A stretch of 64,000 nucleotides of DNA, taken from the NCBI GenBank assembly GCA_036480375.1, contig JAZGGI010000049.1, positions 1-64,000 on the forward strand, given 5' to 3'. Positions 19,443 through 29,504 of this stretch are shown here, one piece after another. The notes under the pieces were generated by a model, which worked only from the letters and a program-made list of their open reading frames with translations, was not told where the DNA came from and did no database searches. Position 1 is the first letter of the stretch. The number at the start of each line of letters is the position of its first letter. Source of the DNA: Candidatus Zixiibacteriota bacterium (GTDB lineage Bacteria > Zixibacteria > MSB-5A5 > GN15 > JAAZOE01). Both the position numbers and the translations under genes were made by a program.

Positions 19443-19514
19443 CAGCTTAATTTGAGGCCGGTATGTGAAATTCGTCACATAGACAATATAGTTCCGGCAT
19501 CGGGAGATTTGAAT

Positions 19515-19871
19515 ATGCCTGCTCAGTATTTGGCAGTGTTGATTTTTATTCTGGTTGGCACCGGCCTTGTGATTTTTACATTTTTTCTATCTCGGCTGAT
19601 CCGCCCCCGCAATCCTTATCAGGTAAAAAACGAGACATACGAATGCGGCGTACCGATTTTCGGCGAAAGCTGGACGCAGTTCAACAACCGTTTTTATATT
19701 TTCGGCCTGATTTTCGTTATATTCGATGTCGAAGCGGTTTTTCTGTTTCCCTGGGCAGTAGCATATAAATCTTTGGGATTTTTTGCGCTAATCGAAATGG
19801 TGATTTTCATTGCCATACTATTGGTCGGCCTGGTCTATGCCTGGAAGAAGGGAGCTTTGAAATGGGTGTGA
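19515..19871 (+). CDS. nuoA: NADH-quinone oxidoreductase-type subunit A
   Basis: 118 residues from ATG 19515, which has GGGAG eight bases upstream. An in-frame TTG at 19452 would add 21 residues that do not resemble NuoA. Three transmembrane helices. Conserved NuoA motifs: [15 protein letters not shown] (the Cys-bearing loop), [27 protein letters not shown]. It is a membrane subunit of complex I, near the quinone channel. First gene of an eleven-gene operon; its end overlaps nuoB by ten bases. Confidence 0.97.
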
Positions 19872-20368
19872 TCAAAAAGCTTCCGGTATATGCCGAAAAA
19901 GTCCCCGGCGGCGGGATAATTACCACACAGTTAAATAAAGTGTTTACGCTGACTCAGGCCAAATCGCTCTGGTATCTGTTGTTTGGCACCGCCTGCTGTG
20001 CAATTGAACTGATGGCGACCGGAGCCTCCCGATATGATTTTGACCGGCTGGGAATGATTTTCAGGGCCTCGCCGCGCCAGTCCGATTTAATAATCGTCGC
20101 CGGAACGGTGACTTACAAAATGGCGCCGGTCGTAAAGCGTCTCTACGATCAAATGGCCGAACCCCGCTATGTTCTGGCGATGGGCGGATGCGCCTGCGGA
20201 GGGGGACCGTTCTATTACGACAGCTATTCCGTTTTGCGCGGAATCGATAAAGTTATCCCCGTTGACGTTTATGTTCCGGGTTGTCCGCCACGGCCGGAAG
20301 CTTTGCTTCATGGCTGTCTTGAAGTGGGCAAAAAAATCAGAACTCAGAAAATGGATGATTGGAGCTAA
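19862..20368 (+). CDS. nuoB: NADH-quinone oxidoreductase-type subunit B
   Basis: 168 residues. It carries the N2 iron-sulphur cluster next to the quinone site. The cluster cysteines are in GTACCAIEL (two adjacent Cys), [10 protein letters not shown] and [10 protein letters not shown]. Length is typical. It overlaps nuoA by ten bases, so translational coupling is likely. Confidence 0.98.
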
Positions 20369-20378
20369 GTAGAATTTG

Positions 20379-20852
20379 ATGACTAAAGCCGAGCTCCTTG
20401 ATTATATAAAAGAAAACTTCTCGGGCGAGTTGGAAGTTATCGAAAACGAGCACCCTGAGCCGTATTTTATCGTTAAGGCTCAGGACCTGGTCGAATTTTC
20501 CCGCTTCATCCACGACGACGAGAGACTTCTCATGACGTTTTTGATGAATCTCTCGGCGGTTGATACGACCGAACAGTTTGAAATCGTCTATAATGTCTGC
20601 TCCTATCGTTTCAAGCATCGCATATATTTCAAAATCATTTTCGATTACATTAAGCCGGAATTTGATTCCGTGATAGACGTCTGGAGAGCGGCCGACTGGT
20701 ACGAGAGAGAAATCTGGGAGCTTTTCGGTATCAACGTCAAGGGGCATCCGAACCTGAAACGATTCCTGCTCCCCGATGACTGGGATGACGGTTATCCGAT
20801 GAGAAAAGGCTGGCAGGGCAAAAACGTGATACCAATGCCGGAAAGAAAGTAA
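20379..20852 (+). CDS. nuoC: NADH-quinone oxidoreductase-type subunit C
   Basis: 157 residues from ATG 20379 (a TTG codon lies just before it in frame). The 30-kDa subunit of the peripheral arm: motif CSYRFKHRIYFKI and the signature WYEREIWELFGINVKGHPNLKRFLLPDDW. Nuo C and D are separate genes here, not fused as in E. coli. The stop overlaps the nuoD start (TAATG). Confidence 0.97.
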   Translation: MTKAELLDYIKENFSGELEVIENEHPEPYFIVKAQDLVEFSRFIHDDERLLMTFLMNLSAVDTTEQFEIVYNVCSYRFKHRIYFKIIFDYIKPEFDSVIDVWRAADWYEREIWELFGINVKGHPNLKRFLLPDDWDDGYPMRKGWQGKNVIPMPERK

Positions 20853-21961
20853 TGCCGAAAGATTTGCGCACAGAGCGAATGGTCATCAACATGGGCCCGC
20901 ATCACCCGTCCACGCACGGAGTCTGCCGCCTGATTTTGATCATCGACGGCGAAGAAATCATTGATTGCGAACCGGTTATCGGGTATTTGCATCGCTCCAT
21001 AGAAAAAATGTGCGAAAACCGCACCTATTTCCAATGCCTGCCTCTGATGGATCGCTTCGAATACGTTACTTCAATGTCATGCAGCTGGGCGTTTGCGTTA
21101 GCCGCTGAAAAGCTGACAGATTTGGAAGTTCCCGAACGAGCCGAATATCTCCGGGTTATCATGGGCGAGCTCAACCGTATCGCGAGCCATTTATTATGTA
21201 TCGGTGTAACGGGTCTGGATTTGGGCGCCCTGACTCCTTTCCTGTACACTTTCCGCGAACGGGAATTGATCCTCGACCTCTTTGAAATGACCTGTGGACA
21301 GCGTTTGACTTACAATTATATAAGGATGGGCGGTGTCTCCAAAGATATCCCGACGGAATTTATTCCCAAATGCCGTGAATTTCTCGACATCATCGACATC
21401 AAATGCGATGACTACGAAAAAGTATTGACAGAAAATCCAATCTGGATCGCCCGCAACAAGGGCATTGGCATCATCACTGAGAAAATGGTTTATGATTACG
21501 CTGTGTCCGGCCCCTCTGCTCGCGCTTCCGGCGTTTCGTTTGACATTCGCAAAGACGACACATATTCAATTTATGATAGATTTAATTTCGATGCCGTTGT
21601 CTATCACGGATGCGATTCCTACGACCGCTACCGTGTCCGGATGGGCGAAATTCGTCAATCGGCCCGGATAATCAGGCAGGCTCTTGACCAGCTTCCCGAA
21701 GGACCGATTACCGCTAAAGCGGCAATAATGACCTTCAAGACTAAAAAAGGCGAGGTCTATTCTCGTATTGAAAATTCGCGCGGAGAAATGGGTATCCATT
21801 TAATATCTGACGGTACTAAAAAGCCGTTCAGGGTTCGCGCTCGCGGCGGCAGTTATAATCATTTACTGGCGACCCCCGAAATTGTTAAGGGTCTGAAAAT
21901 CGCCGATCTGGTGGCGATTTTTGCCTCACTTGATATTATTATGCCGGAGATTGACAGATAA
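20852..21961 (+). CDS. nuoD: NADH-quinone oxidoreductase-type subunit D
   Basis: 369 residues, similar to the 49-kDa subunit that shapes the quinone-binding cavity. The N-terminal signature NMGPHHPSTHGVCRLI, the HR in GYLHRSIEKMCENRTY, and the C-terminal RARGGSYNHL region with the DIIMPEIDR end are all present. Two TAATG overlaps link it with nuoC and nuoH. In some bacteria NuoD-like proteins belong to energy-converting hydrogenases, but here the nickel-binding CxxC pairs are absent and the neighbours are the full complex I membrane arm. Confidence 0.98.
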   Translation: MPKDLRTERMVINMGPHHPSTHGVCRLILIIDGEEIIDCEPVIGYLHRSIEKMCENRTYFQCLPLMDRFEYVTSMSCSWAFALAAEKLTDLEVPERAEYLRVIMGELNRIASHLLCIGVTGLDLGALTPFLYTFRERELILDLFEMTCGQRLTYNYIRMGGVSKDIPTEFIPKCREFLDIIDIKCDDYEKVLTENPIWIARNKGIGIITEKMVYDYAVSGPSARASGVSFDIRKDDTYSIYDRFNFDAVVYHGCDSYDRYRVRMGEIRQSARIIRQALDQLPEGPITAKAAIMTFKTKKGEVYSRIENSRGEMGIHLISDGTKKPFRVRARGGSYNHLLATPEIVKGLKIADLVAIFASLDIIMPEIDR

Positions 21962-22992
21962 TGGAACTGAAACCGGTATTTGACTGGCTGGGAGAACTTT
22001 TAGTCTCGATAGGACTAAGTCCATACTGGAATGCCATTATAAAAAACGCCGTCCTGGCATTGGTCGTCTTCGGATTACTATCTTTGATTGCTCTGTTCCT
22101 TGTTTGGTGGGAACGCAAAGTTTCAGCTCATATTCAGCAGCGGTACGGGCCAATGATGACCGGTTGGCACGGAGTTCTCCAAACCATTGCCGACGCCCTC
22201 AAACTGATTCAAAAAGAAGACCTTACCCCCACATTAGCCGACCGCTCCGTCTTTTTCTGGGCTCCCGTTATCTGTTTCGTAAGCGCTTTTGCCGCTTACG
22301 TGGTCATTCCCTTCGGCGATGGGCTCATCGTTTCGGATTTGAATATCGGAATTCTCTATATAATCGCGATAACGACTTTTACCATAATCGCTCTTTTGAT
22401 GGCCGGGTGGGGATCAAATAATAAATATGCCTTATTGGGAGGTATGCGTTCGGCCGCTCAGGCGGTCAGCTATGAAGTTCCGTTGGCGCTTTCGATTCTC
22501 GGAGTCGTCATGGTCACCGGATCGATGTCGATGAATGACATCGTTGTGGCTCAATCAGGCTGGGGCGGTTTCCGATGGAATATATTTTTCCAGCCCCTCG
22601 GTTTTGTGATTTACATCATCGCCGCTACCGCCGAAGCCAACCGCACTCCGTTTGATATTCCCGAAGCCGAACAGGAACTGGTGGCCGGATTCAATATCGA
22701 ATACTCGGGAATGAAATTCGCCATGTTTTTCCTGGCCGAGTTTATAAATATGTTCACCGTTTCGGCAATTGCCGCGACGGTATTTTTGGGCGGCTGGAAC
22801 GGCCCGTTCTTCCCGTCATGGATGTGGTTTTTGGGCAAGACGCTCTTTGTCGTCTTTTTACTCATGCTCTTCCGCTGGACTTATCCGCGTGTCAGAGTCG
22901 ATCAATTAATGGAATTTGCCTGGAAGGTGCTGTTGCCCCTTGCGTTTTTGAATATTTTGTGGGTCGGGATTCTTGAATGGTTAAGCTGGTAA
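21961..22992 (+). CDS. nuoH: NADH-quinone oxidoreductase-type subunit H
   Basis: 343 residues, eight or so transmembrane segments. It links the peripheral arm to the membrane arm and forms part of the quinone channel. Conserved parts: WWERKVSAHIQQRYGPMMTGWHGVLQTIADALKLIQKED, GSNNKYALLGGMRSAAQAVSYEVPL, EANRTPFDIPEAEQELVAGFNIEYSGMKFAMFFLAEF. The nuoI start lies 16 bases inside its 3' end. Confidence 0.98.
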   Translation: MELKPVFDWLGELLVSIGLSPYWNAIIKNAVLALVVFGLLSLIALFLVWWERKVSAHIQQRYGPMMTGWHGVLQTIADALKLIQKEDLTPTLADRSVFFWAPVICFVSAFAAYVVIPFGDGLIVSDLNIGILYIIAITTFTIIALLMAGWGSNNKYALLGGMRSAAQAVSYEVPLALSILGVVMVTGSMSMNDIVVAQSGWGGFRWNIFFQPLGFVIYIIAATAEANRTPFDIPEAEQELVAGFNIEYSGMKFAMFFLAEFINMFTVSAIAATVFLGGWNGPFFPSWMWFLGKTLFVVFLLMLFRWTYPRVRVDQLMEFAWKVLLPLAFLNILWVGILEWLSW

Positions 22993-23705
22993 AACAATTT
23001 ACATCGGGGATATACAACCTGATTCTGGGATTGCTTACGACAAGTAAACATCTCGGCCGCCATGCCATTACCATCCAGTATCCCAAGGAACGGTGGGAAA
23101 TCCCCGAACGCTCGCGGGGCATGGTCGTTCTGCTGACCGATCTCGAAACCGGTAAATTAAATTGCACTGCCTGCCTGCTGTGCATGCGCGCCTGTCCCAG
23201 CGGAGCGATTGATATTGACTCTTATAAAGATGAAAATAAAAAACGCCAGCTGAGTGACTTTTCCGTTGATTTCAACCTGTGCTGTTTCTGTGGATTGTGC
23301 GAAGACACCTGTAATTTCGCCGGAATAAAACTCTCGACCAAATATGAATTCCCGGAATACGAAGGCGGCCTTTTAAAATATGATATGAAAAAGCTGGCTA
23401 AGCAGGGACTTGATGTACCCTATGAAAAGCCGGTTAAAAAGAAAAAACCGGTCAAGAAACCGGCGCCCAAACCGGATGAAGCCAAAGCCGAAGTGAAACC
23501 GGAAGAAAAACCAGCCGAGTCAAAAGCCGAAGAAAAACCGGCCGATGCTAATTCTGATGTGAAAGCCGAAGAAAAGCCGGCTGCCCCTGAAACTGAAGCA
23601 AAACCGCCTGAAACTCAGCCTGAACCGGAAACGCCAAAAGCCGAACCGGCACCGGAGAAAACAGAAACCGAAAATCCGCCGGAGAAAAATGAGGGTGAGG
23701 AGTAA
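22977..23705 (+). CDS. nuoI: NADH-quinone oxidoreductase-type subunit I with long charged C-terminal tail
   Basis: 242 residues. Residues 1-145 are a normal NuoI carrying two 4Fe-4S motifs, CTACLLCMRACP (about 57-68) and CCFCGLCEDTC (about 101-111). In the second motif the Pro that normally follows the last Cys is replaced by Asn. From about residue 150 to the end there is an unusual low-complexity tail of some 90 residues made of Pro, Glu, Lys and Ala (KKKKPVKKPAPKP, then repeated EEKPAxxKAE units, ending Glu-rich). Such a tail is not part of the ordinary subunit. It could be a flexible tether or docking arm, or simply a drifting low-complexity extension. Confidence 0.96.
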   Translation: MVKLVKQFTSGIYNLILGLLTTSKHLGRHAITIQYPKERWEIPERSRGMVVLLTDLETGKLNCTACLLCMRACPSGAIDIDSYKDENKKRQLSDFSVDFNLCCFCGLCEDTCNFAGIKLSTKYEFPEYEGGLLKYDMKKLAKQGLDVPYEKPVKKKKPVKKPAPKPDEAKAEVKPEEKPAESKAEEKPADANSDVKAEEKPAAPETEAKPPETQPEPETPKAEPAPEKTETENPPEKNEGEE

Positions 23706-23707
23706 TT

Positions 23708-24220
23708 ATGGATCCGGTCGTATTTGTGATTTTAAGTATTTGCATCATCGCTTCGGCCCTGGCCGTCGTGACGATGCGGAATATTTTCCACTGCGCTCTG
23801 GCCCTGATATTTTGCCTTTTTTGTATCGCCGGTTTATATGTCATGCTCAACGCCGAATTTTTGGCGGTTATTCAGGTTCTCCTCTACGTTGGCGCTGTGG
23901 CTATCCTGATGATTTTCGCCATCATGCTCACTTCCCGATTGGCCGGACGCGAAACGAATATTTCCAATGAACAGCAGGTCATCGGTGGATTTCTCTCGCT
24001 AATTTTCTTAGTGACCATGGTCGGCTCGTATTTAGGAATTCCGGGAATCGTTGATGGAACCTATTTCCGCCCAGCGATCGGAATGTTGCCGGCCAATAAT
24101 ACTCATGCAATCGGAACGCTGTTGATGACCGACTTTGTTCTTCCTTTCGAACTGGTATCGGTACTTTTATTGGCGGCCCTAATCGGAGCAATCGTAATCG
24201 CGAGGCGGGAGGAAAACTGA
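23708..24220 (+). CDS. nuoJ: NADH-quinone oxidoreductase-type subunit J
   Basis: 170 residues, five transmembrane helices. A membrane-arm subunit that contributes to the E-channel. The helix 3 region with the conserved pattern AEFLAVIQVLLYVGAVAILMIFAIML is present. The spacing from nuoI is two bases. Length is normal. Confidence 0.96.
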   Translation: MDPVVFVILSICIIASALAVVTMRNIFHCALALIFCLFCIAGLYVMLNAEFLAVIQVLLYVGAVAILMIFAIMLTSRLAGRETNISNEQQVIGGFLSLIFLVTMVGSYLGIPGIVDGTYFRPAIGMLPANNTHAIGTLLMTDFVLPFELVSVLLLAALIGAIVIARREEN

Positions 24221-24221
24221 T

Positions 24222-24536
24222 ATGACCGGTCAAATGTTTTATATGTTTCTATTCCTGGCCGCCGTTCTCTTTTCTATCGGTCTGTTTGGAATTCTGACCC
24301 GGCGTAACGCCATCGCGATTTTAATGTCTCTGGAATTAATGTTTAACGCCGTCAACATAAATCTGGTGGTTTTCAATCGTTACACCAGCCTTAATGAATT
24401 AACCGGTCAAATTTTCGCGATATTTGTCATCGTTGTCGCCGCCGCCGAAGCGACCGTGGGACTGGCCATTGTAATTCTCATATACCGGAGATGGCACAGT
24501 ATTGACGCCGACCGGGTTAACTTAATGAAGTGGTAA
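24222..24536 (+). CDS. nuoK: NADH-quinone oxidoreductase-type subunit K
   Basis: 104 residues, three transmembrane helices, with the proton-channel glutamates in ILMSLELMFNAVNINLV and the AAAEATVGLAIVI segment. Homologous to MrpC antiporter subunits. It lies one base after nuoJ. Confidence 0.97.
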   Translation: MTGQMFYMFLFLAAVLFSIGLFGILTRRNAIAILMSLELMFNAVNINLVVFNRYTSLNELTGQIFAIFVIVVAAAEATVGLAIVILIYRRWHSIDADRVNLMKW

Positions 24537-24537
24537 T

Positions 24538-26547
24538 ATGCTGGATAATGCCTACATAATTGGTCTGCTGCCTCTTTTTGCTTTTGTTATTATTGTATTT
24601 TTCACGCGCTGGAAAGAAAATCTCTCGGCCGGAATATCAATTGGGGCCATTGGTCTGGGGTGGCTGATGTCGATTTGTGTCATGGCTCAAGTGATAATGC
24701 ATGCCGGGCACGAAGCGTTTCGGCTTGAGAGGGCATTCGATATTGTCACTCTACCGGCCTTCCGCCTCGAACTCGGTTTCCTGATTGATCCCGTCGCGGC
24801 CATGATGCTTGTTGTCGTCACGACCGTATCATTGATGATCCAGATATATTCCCTCGGCTATATGCACGGTGATCCCCGATTTTCGAGATATTTTGCCTAC
24901 CTGTCGCTTTTCACGTTCTCAATGCTGGGATTGGTTCTGGCCAACAATTTCTTTCTCATCTTCATCTTCTGGGAACTCGTCGGTCTCACGTCTTATCTTT
25001 TGATCGGTTTCTGGTTTGAGAAAAAATCGGCATCCGACGCGGGCAAAAAAGCGTTTATTACCACTAAAGTCGGTGATTTGGGATTCCTGTTGGGCCTGAT
25101 GCTGATATATTACTATATCGGCTCATTCAACTATAAAGAAGTTTTCGATGTTGTCGCCGCCGGAGGCGTTCCCACCGCGGCTTTGACTGCCATTGGAATT
25201 TGCATTTTCTGCGGAGCGGTCGGCAAATCGGCCCAGTTCCCGCTCCATGTCTGGCTTCCCGACGCGATGGAAGGCCCGACTCCGGTTTCAGCCTTGATTC
25301 ATGCCGCCACGATGGTGGCCGCTGGCGTTTATCTCGTCGCCAAAACGATGGCTATCTACGTCGCCGCACCGGCCGCGGCCGAGGTTGTCGCCTGGATTGG
25401 CCTATTTACATCGTTATTTGCCGCCAGCATTGCCTTGGTTCAAAATGATATCAAACGAGTATTAGCCTTTTCGACCTTATCACAGTTGGGCTATATGATA
25501 ATGGCTCTCGGCCTGACTCATTTTGTCGCCGGTTCATTCCATCTGATGACGCACGCTTTCTTCAAAGCCCTGTTATTCCTCGGCGCCGGTTCGGTCATTC
25601 ATGCCGTTCACACCAACGACATTCAACAAATGGGCGGCCTGCTGGGCAAAATGAAAACGACGGCGATGACTTTCCTGATTGCCTGTCTGGCCATTGCCGG
25701 AATTCCTCCGCTGGCCGGGTTCTGGTCAAAAGATGAAATTATTGCCTCGACTCTGGGTCATCCGGTCTTTACCGTTGTGGCGCTTATGGTCGCTTTCATG
25801 ACCGCCTTCTATATGTTCCGCCTGTTCTTCCTGACCTTCACCGGCAAACCGCGCGATCAGGAAAAATACGACCACGCCCATGAATCGCCCAAATCAATGA
25901 CTTATCCGTTGATTTTCCTGGCTGTCATGTCAATCTGCGCCGGGTGGGTCGGTATTCCAAAGATTCCAGGAGTAATCGAAATTAAAGGATTTGCCTGGTA
26001 TATTTATGGCGTTGGTGAGCATCCTCACATACCAAGCGTTCATTGGCTTCCGATGATACTTTCAATCGTTATCGCCTCGTCGGGAATCTTTCTGGCCTAC
26101 CTGATGTATTACAAGGGAAAAATTTCACCGGATGCGATGGCACAACGATTCAGCTTCGTTTACAAAGTCCTTTATAACAAATATTACATAGATGAATTTT
26201 ACAATGCCGTAATCGTTCAGCCCTGTTACTGGATGGCGCGTAATCTCTGGCGCTTTGACGCCGGCATCATCGACGGTTTGGTTAATCTGCAGGCAACTAT
26301 CACAATCTGGCTGTCGGATGCCAAACAGTGGTTTGATGTCAATATCGTTGACGGCATTGTTAACGGCCTCGGTATAATTACCGACTGGTTCTCCGCGGCT
26401 TTGCGCCGCATACAAACCGGACGGCTGGCCCATTATCTTCTGGCCGTCGTTTTTGGACTGATACTGATAGCGCTTTTGTCCGCCTCTGACTTGCTGAATC
26501 AAGCTCTGATACACATCGGCATAATAGAGGGACAATTGGGAGGATAA
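24538..26547 (+). CDS. nuoL: NADH-quinone oxidoreductase-type subunit L
   Basis: 669 residues. The largest antiporter-like proton-pumping subunit, ending in the long lateral helix and a last anchor. Motifs: LGLVLANNFFLIFIFWELVGLTSYLLIGFW (helix 5 Glu), GKSAQFPLHVWLPDAMEGPTPVSALIHAATMVAAGVYLV, and QNDIKRVLAFSTLSQLGYM with the conserved Lys. Length is typical. One base separates it from nuoK. Confidence 0.98.
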   Translation: MLDNAYIIGLLPLFAFVIIVFFTRWKENLSAGISIGAIGLGWLMSICVMAQVIMHAGHEAFRLERAFDIVTLPAFRLELGFLIDPVAAMMLVVVTTVSLMIQIYSLGYMHGDPRFSRYFAYLSLFTFSMLGLVLANNFFLIFIFWELVGLTSYLLIGFWFEKKSASDAGKKAFITTKVGDLGFLLGLMLIYYYIGSFNYKEVFDVVAAGGVPTAALTAIGICIFCGAVGKSAQFPLHVWLPDAMEGPTPVSALIHAATMVAAGVYLVAKTMAIYVAAPAAAEVVAWIGLFTSLFAASIALVQNDIKRVLAFSTLSQLGYMIMALGLTHFVAGSFHLMTHAFFKALLFLGAGSVIHAVHTNDIQQMGGLLGKMKTTAMTFLIACLAIAGIPPLAGFWSKDEIIASTLGHPVFTVVALMVAFMTAFYMFRLFFLTFTGKPRDQEKYDHAHESPKSMTYPLIFLAVMSICAGWVGIPKIPGVIEIKGFAWYIYGVGEHPHIPSVHWLPMILSIVIASSGIFLAYLMYYKGKISPDAMAQRFSFVYKVLYNKYYIDEFYNAVIVQPCYWMARNLWRFDAGIIDGLVNLQATITIWLSDAKQWFDVNIVDGIVNGLGIITDWFSAALRRIQTGRLAHYLLAVVFGLILIALLSASDLLNQALIHIGIIEGQLGG

Positions 26548-26554
26548 AACCAAA

Positions 26555-28036
26555 ATGAGTTACAGTTATCCGATTCTGACATACACCATCTTTATTCCGC
26601 TTTTGGGCGCGATTGTGCTTTTGTTTCTGGATAAGGAAAAGCATAATATCATCAGGTGGGTTTCGACTTTTTTTGCTTTTATTGCCTTTATCCTGACGAT
26701 TTTTATCCTTCGCGATTTTGACTGGACCACCAGCCAGATGCAATTCATGGAATCACACACCTGGATTCCCACTATCGGCTCCAATTATCTTCTGGGCGTG
26801 GACGGCATTTCCGTTCCGATGCTTCTTTTGACCAGTCTCCTGTCGCTTATCTCGATTGTCATCAGCTTTAACATCACCAAGCGGGTCAAGGAATACTTTG
26901 TCTTTTTCCTGCTTTTGGAATGCGGTATGATAGGAGTTTTCGCGGCTCTTGATTTCTTCCTCTTCTATGTTTTCTGGGAAATAATGCTGGTCCCGATGTA
27001 TTTCCTGATCGGTATCTGGGGCGGTCCCCGGCGCGAATATGCTGCTATCAAGTTTTTCCTCTATACATTATTCGGCTCCATCTTCATGCTTGTGGCGATT
27101 CTGGTTCTCTACTTCACTTCCGAACCGCATACGCTCAATATGCTTGAAATGACCCAAATCGGCCCCAGCTTCCCGCATAACATCCAGCTTTTTACATTTG
27201 CCTTCTTCTTTATCGCTTTCGCGATAAAAGTCCCCGTCTGGCCGTTTCACACCTGGTTACCCGACGCCCACGTGGAAGCTCCGACAGCCGTATCGATCAT
27301 CCTTGCCGCCGTGCTCTTGAAAATGGGAACCTACGGTATGCTCCGCATCTCATGGCCGATGCTTCCCGAAGGGATACGATTTTTTGCGATACCTATCGCG
27401 ATTTTGGGGGTGATCGCCATCATCTACGGCGCCTTGGTATCAATGGCGCAAAAAGATTTGAAAAGACTGGTCGCCTATTCATCCGTTTCGCACATGGGGT
27501 TTTGTATGCTATCGCTGGCGGCTTTTACATCCGTGACAGCGATGGCCGGTTGCATGTTTCAGATGGTCTCGCACGGACTCATCACCGGCGCCCTCTTCTT
27601 ACTTGTAGGCGTCTTATACGACCGGGCCCACACTCGTGAAATTGCGGCCTTCGGCGGCATCGGTAAAAAACTTCCGGTGTACACTGGTATTATGGCTATG
27701 TTCGCCATGGCTTCGCTGGGACTGCCGGGCATGTCCGGATTTATCTCCGAATACATGATCTTTATCGGATCATTCCCGAGCTATCCGGTAATCGTCGGAA
27801 TCGCGATTTTGGGCGTTGTCCTGACCGCCGCCTACATCCTGCGTATGGTCCAGAACATATTCCTCGGTGAATTTGACCAGGCTAAATGGGGTCATTTGAC
27901 AGAAATAAATGTTCGCGAAATTCTCTGTGTCGCGCCTCTGGCGGTGCTGACACTGGCCATAGGTATTTATCCCAAACCACTGAGTGACTTGATGCGGGCC
28001 ACTTTGGAAAACATTGTAACCCTGATGGCACGATAA
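26555..28036 (+). CDS. nuoM: NADH-quinone oxidoreductase-type subunit M
   Basis: 493 residues, second antiporter-like pump subunit. Conserved WEIMLVPMYFLIGIWGG, KVPVWPFHTWLPDAHVEAPTAVSIILAAVLLKMGTYGMLR and AQKDLKRLVAYSSVSHMGF. Located seven bases after nuoL, with a GAGG-like site in front. Confidence 0.98.
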   Translation: MSYSYPILTYTIFIPLLGAIVLLFLDKEKHNIIRWVSTFFAFIAFILTIFILRDFDWTTSQMQFMESHTWIPTIGSNYLLGVDGISVPMLLLTSLLSLISIVISFNITKRVKEYFVFFLLLECGMIGVFAALDFFLFYVFWEIMLVPMYFLIGIWGGPRREYAAIKFFLYTLFGSIFMLVAILVLYFTSEPHTLNMLEMTQIGPSFPHNIQLFTFAFFFIAFAIKVPVWPFHTWLPDAHVEAPTAVSIILAAVLLKMGTYGMLRISWPMLPEGIRFFAIPIAILGVIAIIYGALVSMAQKDLKRLVAYSSVSHMGFCMLSLAAFTSVTAMAGCMFQMVSHGLITGALFLLVGVLYDRAHTREIAAFGGIGKKLPVYTGIMAMFAMASLGLPGMSGFISEYMIFIGSFPSYPVIVGIAILGVVLTAAYILRMVQNIFLGEFDQAKWGHLTEINVREILCVAPLAVLTLAIGIYPKPLSDLMRATLENIVTLMAR

Positions 28037-28037
28037 G

Positions 28038-29504
28038 ATGAATGTAGATTTTCCAGATATTACGCCGATGATACCGGAGCTATTCCTGTTCGTTATGGCT
28101 CTGGTAGTTTTGCTTCTCGACCTGTTTTCGAAAAAACGCTCGGTTGCGGTCCCTGCTTATACCAGTATGGTTGCTCTGGTTATCACCGGAGCATTGCTAT
28201 ATAAATTTCAAGGCGGTAATCTCTGGAACGGCATGTTCGTTTCCGACGGATTTTCTGTCTTCTTTAAAATTATTTTCCTGGGCTCCGCTTTCATGGCCAT
28301 CGGCTCATCTTTCGGAATTGTCGGAAAGATGTCTCATCATCGGGGTGAATTTTTCTCTCTGATTTTATTCTCGACCGTCGGTATGATGTATCTGGCCTCG
28401 GCCAAAGAACTGATAATGCTCTATATTGGTCTGGAACTTACAACCATTCCGTTATTTGTCCTGGCAGCCTATCAAAAAACCAGAAAGGCTTCAGCCGAAG
28501 CCGGTTTGAAATATTTGATTATCGGCGCCGCATCTTCGGCCATCCTGCTTTACGGACTTTCTATTATCTATGGTCTGGCCGGTACAACCTATTTGAATCA
28601 GATCACGATTAATCTCTCTATTTACTGGTTGTCGCACGGCATGATCGGCCCGGCCTTCTCGGTTGCTCTGATGATGATTATGGCCGGCTTGACTTTCAAA
28701 CTGGCGATTGTTCCGTTCCACATGTGGGCGCCCGATGTTTATGAAGGTGCGCCGACTCCGATTACGGCGTTTTTGTCGGTTGGCTCCAAAGCTGCCGGAC
28801 TGGCCGCTATCGTCAGGATTTTCGACGGCATGCTGATCGCCTTTGCCTCTGATATGATGGCTCCCCGCGACTGGGGTAACATGATGGCCGTTCTGGCGGC
28901 GATTACCATGATTGTCGGAAACGTCATCGCCATTCGCCAGACAAACATCAAGCGCATGCTGGCTTATTCGTCAATTGCCCAGGCCGGATATATTCTTGTC
29001 GGCGTTGTTGCCGCGACTACGATGGGTGTGGCTTCGGTCAGTTTTTACATGTTCGCTTATCTTTTCGCCAACATGGGCGCTTTTGCCGTGGCCGGACTAT
29101 TCGCCGAGAAAACGGGCTCTGAAAATATCAAAGATTTCGCGGGTTTGGCCCAATCCTCGCCAATGGTCTCAATGCTTATGGCGGCCTTTCTCTTGTCGCT
29201 GGCCGGTATTCCACCTCTGGCGGGATTTTTGGCAAAATATTACGTCTTTGCCGCCGCTATCGAAGCTGACTTCACGTGGCTGGTAATCCTGGCTCTGCTG
29301 ACTTCGGTCATTTCGCTTTATTATTACGCCAACGTCATCCGGCTGATGTACCTGGCTCCCGAAAAGAGCCAACATCGGGTCGTGCCGTCATTTCCGGCCG
29401 GGTTAGTCCTGACTATTGCCGGAATCGGCGTTTTGATATTCGGGATTCTGCCGCAATCGATTTTGGAATTGGCCTATGACGCGGCGACCAGCTTCGCCTT
29501 TTAA
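28038..29504 (+). CDS. nuoN: NADH-quinone oxidoreductase-type subunit N
   Basis: 488 residues, third antiporter-like subunit. Motifs ELIMLYIGLELTTIPLFVLAAY, FKLAIVPFHMWAPDVYEGAPTPITAFLSVGSKAAG and RQTNIKRMLAYSSIAQAGYI. It ends the eleven-gene operon A-B-C-D-H-I-J-K-L-M-N. No nuoE, F or G occurs anywhere in the window, and no terminator is seen directly after it. Confidence 0.98.
   Translation: MNVDFPDITPMIPELFLFVMALVVLLLDLFSKKRSVAVPAYTSMVALVITGALLYKFQGGNLWNGMFVSDGFSVFFKIIFLGSAFMAIGSSFGIVGKMSHHRGEFFSLILFSTVGMMYLASAKELIMLYIGLELTTIPLFVLAAYQKTRKASAEAGLKYLIIGAASSAILLYGLSIIYGLAGTTYLNQITINLSIYWLSHGMIGPAFSVALMMIMAGLTFKLAIVPFHMWAPDVYEGAPTPITAFLSVGSKAAGLAAIVRIFDGMLIAFASDMMAPRDWGNMMAVLAAITMIVGNVIAIRQTNIKRMLAYSSIAQAGYILVGVVAATTMGVASVSFYMFAYLFANMGAFAVAGLFAEKTGSENIKDFAGLAQSSPMVSMLMAAFLLSLAGIPPLAGFLAKYYVFAAAIEADFTWLVILALLTSVISLYYYANVIRLMYLAPEKSQHRVVPSFPAGLVLTIAGIGVLIFGILPQSILELAYDAATSFAF

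Follow-up and report, generated by a model that had tools for sequence, protein, structure and literature searches.

A charged NuoI tail linked to the eleven-subunit complex I of Zixibacteria, with a possible role in donor docking

Within Zixibacteria, a long charged C-terminal tail of NuoI is linked to the complex I that lacks NuoE, NuoF and NuoG, and not to the 14-subunit paralog. On the strength of its charge order and distribution, we tentatively read this tail as a disordered, two-part charged arm for docking an electron donor, probably an acidic one such as ferredoxin, on the NuoI of a complex without its N-module, a reading that we regard as plausible rather than probable.

The operon and its NuoI

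The window (the whole stretch of 64,000 nucleotides that was analysed) contains an eleven-gene nuo operon, whose genes A, B, C, D, H, I, J and K were named by Pfam and NCBIfam matches, and L, M and N by their translations and gene order. The features are as follows.

19452..29504, + strand: nuoABCDHIJKLMN operon, without nuoE, nuoF and nuoG (open reading frames, Pfam/NCBIfam, gene order)
22977..23705, + strand: nuoI, 242 residues (TIGR01971 match)
23163..23198, + strand: cluster motif 1, CTACLLCMRACP (sequence)
23199..23279, + strand: inter-motif stretch containing basic KKR, interpreted as the NdhI-type hairpin (alignment with chloroplast NdhI; tailed and tailless copies)
23280..23315, + strand: cluster motif 2, CCFCGLCEDTCN, with a Cys-Asn end (sequence)
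23406..23423, + strand: core/tail junction GLDVPY (pattern in 86 of 89 Asn copies and 0 of 10 Cys-Pro copies)
23424..23474, + strand: basic tail root EKPVKKKKPVKKPAPKP, the first 17 tail residues, net +7 (charge count)
23475..23702, + strand: distal K/P/E/A region, the remaining 76 tail residues, net -14 (charge count)

Searched by tblastn with the genome's own copies, the window reveals no NuoE, NuoF or NuoG. Contig 45 of the same genome carries a complete nuoA-N operon for a 14-subunit complex (C45:5091-19538), and the NuoI of that operon (L002) has Cys-Pro at the end of motif 2 and only 13 residues beyond the junction point, without such a tail. Two NuoF-domain genes are present in this genome, one in the 14-subunit operon and the other on contig 12, next to a NuoE-like gene, and the sharing of a NuoF-domain protein with the 11-subunit complex is conceivable. 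On contig 12 (L043:4808-10737), genes for POR_N, TPP_enzyme_C and POR proteins are followed by those for NuoE-like, NuoF-like and Fe-S proteins, a cluster that is possibly a ferredoxin source or a soluble diaphorase. No donor gene is evident in or beside the nuo operon, as annotated by eye and, for two neighbours, by domain search. The match of the operon's NuoC (20376-20852) to the NCBIfam model NF005832, which has 430 positions, is limited to positions 307-424, so that the family possesses about 300 further N-terminal positions; in Bacillus, the N-terminal part of NuoC takes the form of charged repeats.

The NuoI of the window possesses the two C-x2-C-x2-C-x3-C motifs, separated by a hairpin, by which members of this family are recognized. 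Its TIGR01971 score (104.5 bits, residues 18-140) is below the curated cut-off of 113.05, but TIGR01971 ranks first among the 25 families listed for this protein and the gene is positioned in a nuo operon, and we therefore read the low score as divergence, not as membership in another family. The stretch between the motifs contains basic residues, as in NDH-1-type proteins (KKR in the window), a feature that is not specific to the tail since the tailless copies have it too. Motif 2 indeed carries the Cys-Asn end that the original prediction had pointed out, in place of the Cys-Pro present in all three aligned PDB relatives (7awt_I, 7eu3_I, 6x89_S8), and it has an extra Cys immediately after the first ligand (CC).

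With the core treated as residues 1-142, residues 150-242 (23424-23702) make up a tail of 93 residues, of which K, P, E and A account for 79.6%. The proposed tail of about 90 Lys/Pro/Glu/Ala residues is thus real and lies within the proposed span of 23420-23705, except that low complexity starts at about 23424, not at 23420. The repeated EEKPAxxKAE-like units are also there, EEKPA occurring at three tail sites (residues 176, 185 and 198) and KAE at four (residues 170, 183, 196 and 221), while the tail DNA contains one imperfect repeat, with a unit of 27 bases in 2.2 copies. Within the tail, the KPEA content peaks at 82% over 60 residues, versus a maximum of 50% per stretch of this length in the other open reading frames of the window (15,231 stretches from non-overlapping frames of at least 100 residues, the NuoI tail excluded), and the tail sequence finds only itself in the genome at E <= 1. 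An AlphaFold model of NuoI, from a 12-row alignment, had a mean pLDDT of 45.8 and was discarded.

Distribution and origin of the tail in Zixibacteria

NuoI matches at E <= 1e-20 are present in 100 of the 132 genomes of the phylum. Ninety-nine copies were read, 98 of them close matches and one the 14-subunit NuoI of the window genome; a partial copy (G091:C262) and 20 weaker second copies, with open frames of 139-179 residues, were left out. Asn follows the last ligand position of motif 2 in 89 of the 99, and all 87 of these that reach the tail region possess a tail, complete in 86 and extending 23-124 residues beyond the junction (median 60), with two copies cut by contig ends before the tail (L074, L088) and one inside it (L057). 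In three of the 89, Ala replaces the second Cys of the CC in motif 2. The copy L049, from a single-contig genome (G078), has Phe instead of the last motif 2 ligand Cys, which may be a sequencing error. The other 10 copies are of the Cys-Pro type, and none has a tail.

A sequencing or assembly artefact is ruled out by the 86 complete copies in which the tail is present. The tailed Asn type spans ten family codes, and the comparison of sister genomes called for by the original prediction finds the tail in all seven family-f1 genomes listed with this NuoI. Absence from close relatives, which had been named as the observation that would speak against the prediction, is thus not seen within family f1; it is seen in the more distant families f12, f13 and f14, which belong to the same class and from which nine of the Cys-Pro copies come, with 0-4 residues beyond the junction point. 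Among the contigs carrying these nine, the full complement A-D and H-N is present on five, NuoD can be seen upstream of NuoH on another two, and those of L126 and L134 are truncated before D is reached; no NuoE, NuoF or NuoG is found near any of the nine in the stretches examined. These tailless copies rule out the tail as a part of every 11-subunit complex. Within about 1.5 kb on each side of the 89 Asn copies, NuoD is found near 66, and a search covering NuoG and NuoF finds neither. In contrast, the NuoI of the 14-subunit complex, matched in 109 of 129 genomes, is Cys-Pro and tailless, with 48-56 residues after motif 2, in all 29 copies read from 30 loci (L253 is outside the 29); further matches of the 14-type, outside the read set, come from G084, G114, G115 and G116, with open frames of 204-272 residues.

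In a core tree of 102 rows, the tailed group forms one side of a single branch (support 100/99), with the nine tailless copies branching outside it; this tree is built on few columns, the trait residue is kept in the alignment, and the bootstrap is not fully settled. The tail and Cys-Asn thus appear to have been gained on one branch, inside a NuoI lineage that also has tailless members, lacking EFG where this is visible, and, as both lie on this single branch, their coupling counts as one event. The presence of nine tailless copies in the same lineage, seven of them visibly EFG-less, makes the tail a later gain, not a requirement. No loss since that gain is seen among the complete Asn copies read.

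What has been maintained since is primarily the order of charges. The first 15 residues are net positive in 85 of the 86 complete tails and the last 25 are net negative in 83 (the two stretches overlap in seven tails shorter than 40 residues). For the 79 tails of at least 40 residues, the charge asymmetry is 8.1, versus a mean of 0.08 in 1000 shuffles (SD 0.46, maximum 1.4). Across 17 close pairs, dN/dS is 0.08-0.54 for the tail (estimable in 13) and 0.01-0.11 for the core (estimable in 15), values that are rough, with many dS above 1 and uncertain alignments of low-complexity sequence, and the residue identity of the tail is 0.30-0.88. Both dN/dS and a charge order beyond that of the shuffles argue that the tail is translated and is constrained as a plan more than as a sequence. 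A tail that serves generally for solubility or as a spacer (an entropic bristle), without a specific partner and kept for its composition only, would agree with such a fall in identity, composition and charge order being all that is clearly kept, but it would not predict that basic-then-acidic order, nor the presence of the tail in every complete Asn copy over ten family codes, nor its absence from the 14-subunit paralogs read, and we find this explanation doubtful.

NuoI tails and motif 2 changes in other phyla

Outside Zixibacteria, we read 34 NuoI copies from regions at the top of the match listing, plus follow-up loci in the phyla of two of the genomes, G190 and G335. Among the 34, Cys-Pro is present in 33 and Cys-Gly in one (L147, genome G335), and one copy (L178, genome G190) ends in a very long tail rich in Ala and Lys. 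In the phylum to which G190 belongs, probably Chloroflexota, 301 genomes yield 62 NuoI matches, and the best 28 of these, which cover nearly the whole query (32 others being unread), are all long-tailed, with 141-291 residues after motif 2 (L184-L211; L200 is cut by a contig end and L188 has masked bases), while two further matches (L212, L213) have 63-64. The tails inspected are built of Ala/Lys/Arg repeats such as KAARLAAIRAANAAKK. NuoD directly precedes NuoI in all 28 loci, in the order C-D-I in 27, and no NuoE, NuoF or NuoG is seen near them in the stretches examined, or in a 19.5-kb stretch of G190. These copies thus resemble the Zixibacterial ones in having a long low-complexity tail with no E, F or G nearby, but they differ in their Ala-rich repeats, in a net positive charge (27 of 28) and in keeping Cys-Pro, and both the repeat type and the phylum suggest a separate origin.

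In the phylum of G335, it is the Pro of motif 2 that varies, being replaced in 15 of 28 loci (by Gly in 8, Asn in 2, Ala in 3 and Thr in 2). All of these copies have short ends (L214-L222, L228, L231, L236-L239), and 13 have NuoD nearby with no E, F or G seen, two being unclassed. Cys-Asn is therefore not unique to the Zixibacterial group, as L228 and L231 demonstrate. The occurrence of Cys-Asn without a long tail in these two, and of long tails with Cys-Pro in the phylum of G190, counts against the donor-docking reading of the Zixibacterial tail. The 11-subunit class stands here for NuoD near NuoI and no E, F or G in the stretch examined, and, with 19 of 89 loci unclassable and only three of the 14-type, the link of long tails or Pro loss to EFG-less complexes is weak outside Zixibacteria; a NuoF domain is present somewhere in all 17 genomes tested. 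It could be imagined that the N-module-less complexes I of unrelated phyla each built a donor-catching arm on NuoI, and that in some lineages the loss of the Pro after the last ligand adjusted the properties of the entry cluster. We consider this broader scenario unlikely; if true, one subunit would take on the task for which chloroplast and cyanobacterial NDH-1 employs additional subunits.

Donor docking and the known complexes

The last Cys of motif 2 is, we assume from the 2[4Fe-4S] topology, a ligand of cluster N6a. When NuoEFG are missing, N6a would be the first to receive electrons, and the basic root of the tail, which would lie near it, would most likely form, together with the basic inter-motif stretch, a docking surface that attracts an acidic one-electron donor by its charge. 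The acidic end, as a spacer or a brake, may extend the reach of the arm, shield the root and speed release. The proposal that the tail recruits a soluble donor draws support from its conservation throughout the clade, its restriction to the EFG-less complex, its basic root, the binding of ferredoxin by this same subunit in NDH-1, and the parallel long tails in the phylum of G190. Against it, nine members of the lineage manage without a tail, seven of them in operons that visibly lack EFG; the distal 76 residues of the window's protein are net acidic (-14) and would repel ferredoxin, leaving only the root to attract it; and the operon has no evident donor gene in it or beside it. Donor docking seems nevertheless the most economical reading, a role in packing or solubility being also possible.

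Structural packing, with the tail lying over the surface bared by the missing N-module and stabilising the peripheral arm, has a precedent in the E. coli NuoI, whose C-terminus lies ordered over NuoG, NuoF, NuoB and NuoE in the portion of the structural account available (PMC8357420), and, judged by alignment, this extension and the Zixibacterial tail depart from the core at roughly the same point. However, a content of F, W, Y, C, M, I, L and H of only 1.5% over the 86 tails, the wide range of tail lengths and the fast turnover of residues are a better fit to disorder, and the tailless relatives of the same lineage manage without a tail, making packing rather improbable. Least likely is that the tail tethers something bulkier than free ferredoxin, for instance a soluble diaphorase of the NuoEF type or a 2-oxoacid:ferredoxin oxidoreductase: the contig 12 cluster described above would supply candidates in the same genome, but it and the nuo operon are on different contigs, and it was observed in this one genome. 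As a donor-docking arm, the tail would be a bait for finding the donor of the 11-subunit complex I, with the tailless 14-subunit complex of the same cell as a control and the tailless relatives of the same lineage as a natural deletion.

No paper describing a NuoI tail of this kind was found, in a literature coverage that mostly excludes subscription journals. The closest counterpart by gene content is the 11-subunit complex I (PMC11238625), likewise encoded by nuoABCDHIJKLMN without EFG; in the parts of that source at hand, the identity of the electron donor is described as unsettled, ferredoxin is proposed for this role, and no NuoI tail is described, the comparison with the NuoI of the window being one of descriptions. 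In E. coli, residues 139-180 of NuoI are reported, in the sections available, to form an ordered tail that stretches across neighbouring subunits (PMC8357420; PMC8762328). NuoI is thus prolonged C-terminally at about the same place as in Zixibacteria, but by 42 ordered residues that contact NuoG, B, F, D and E, and in a 14-subunit enzyme. The photosynthetic NDH-1 (NdhI/NdhH/NdhS/NdhV) is also EFG-less (PMC9414918, in the part available), and here, according to the accessible portion of PMC6992706, ferredoxin docks through a basic patch on the NdhI hairpin and NdhH, 9.6 Å from N6a. The NDH-1 site is shaped by extra OPS subunits, whereas in Zixibacteria NuoI itself carries the charged element, as its tail.
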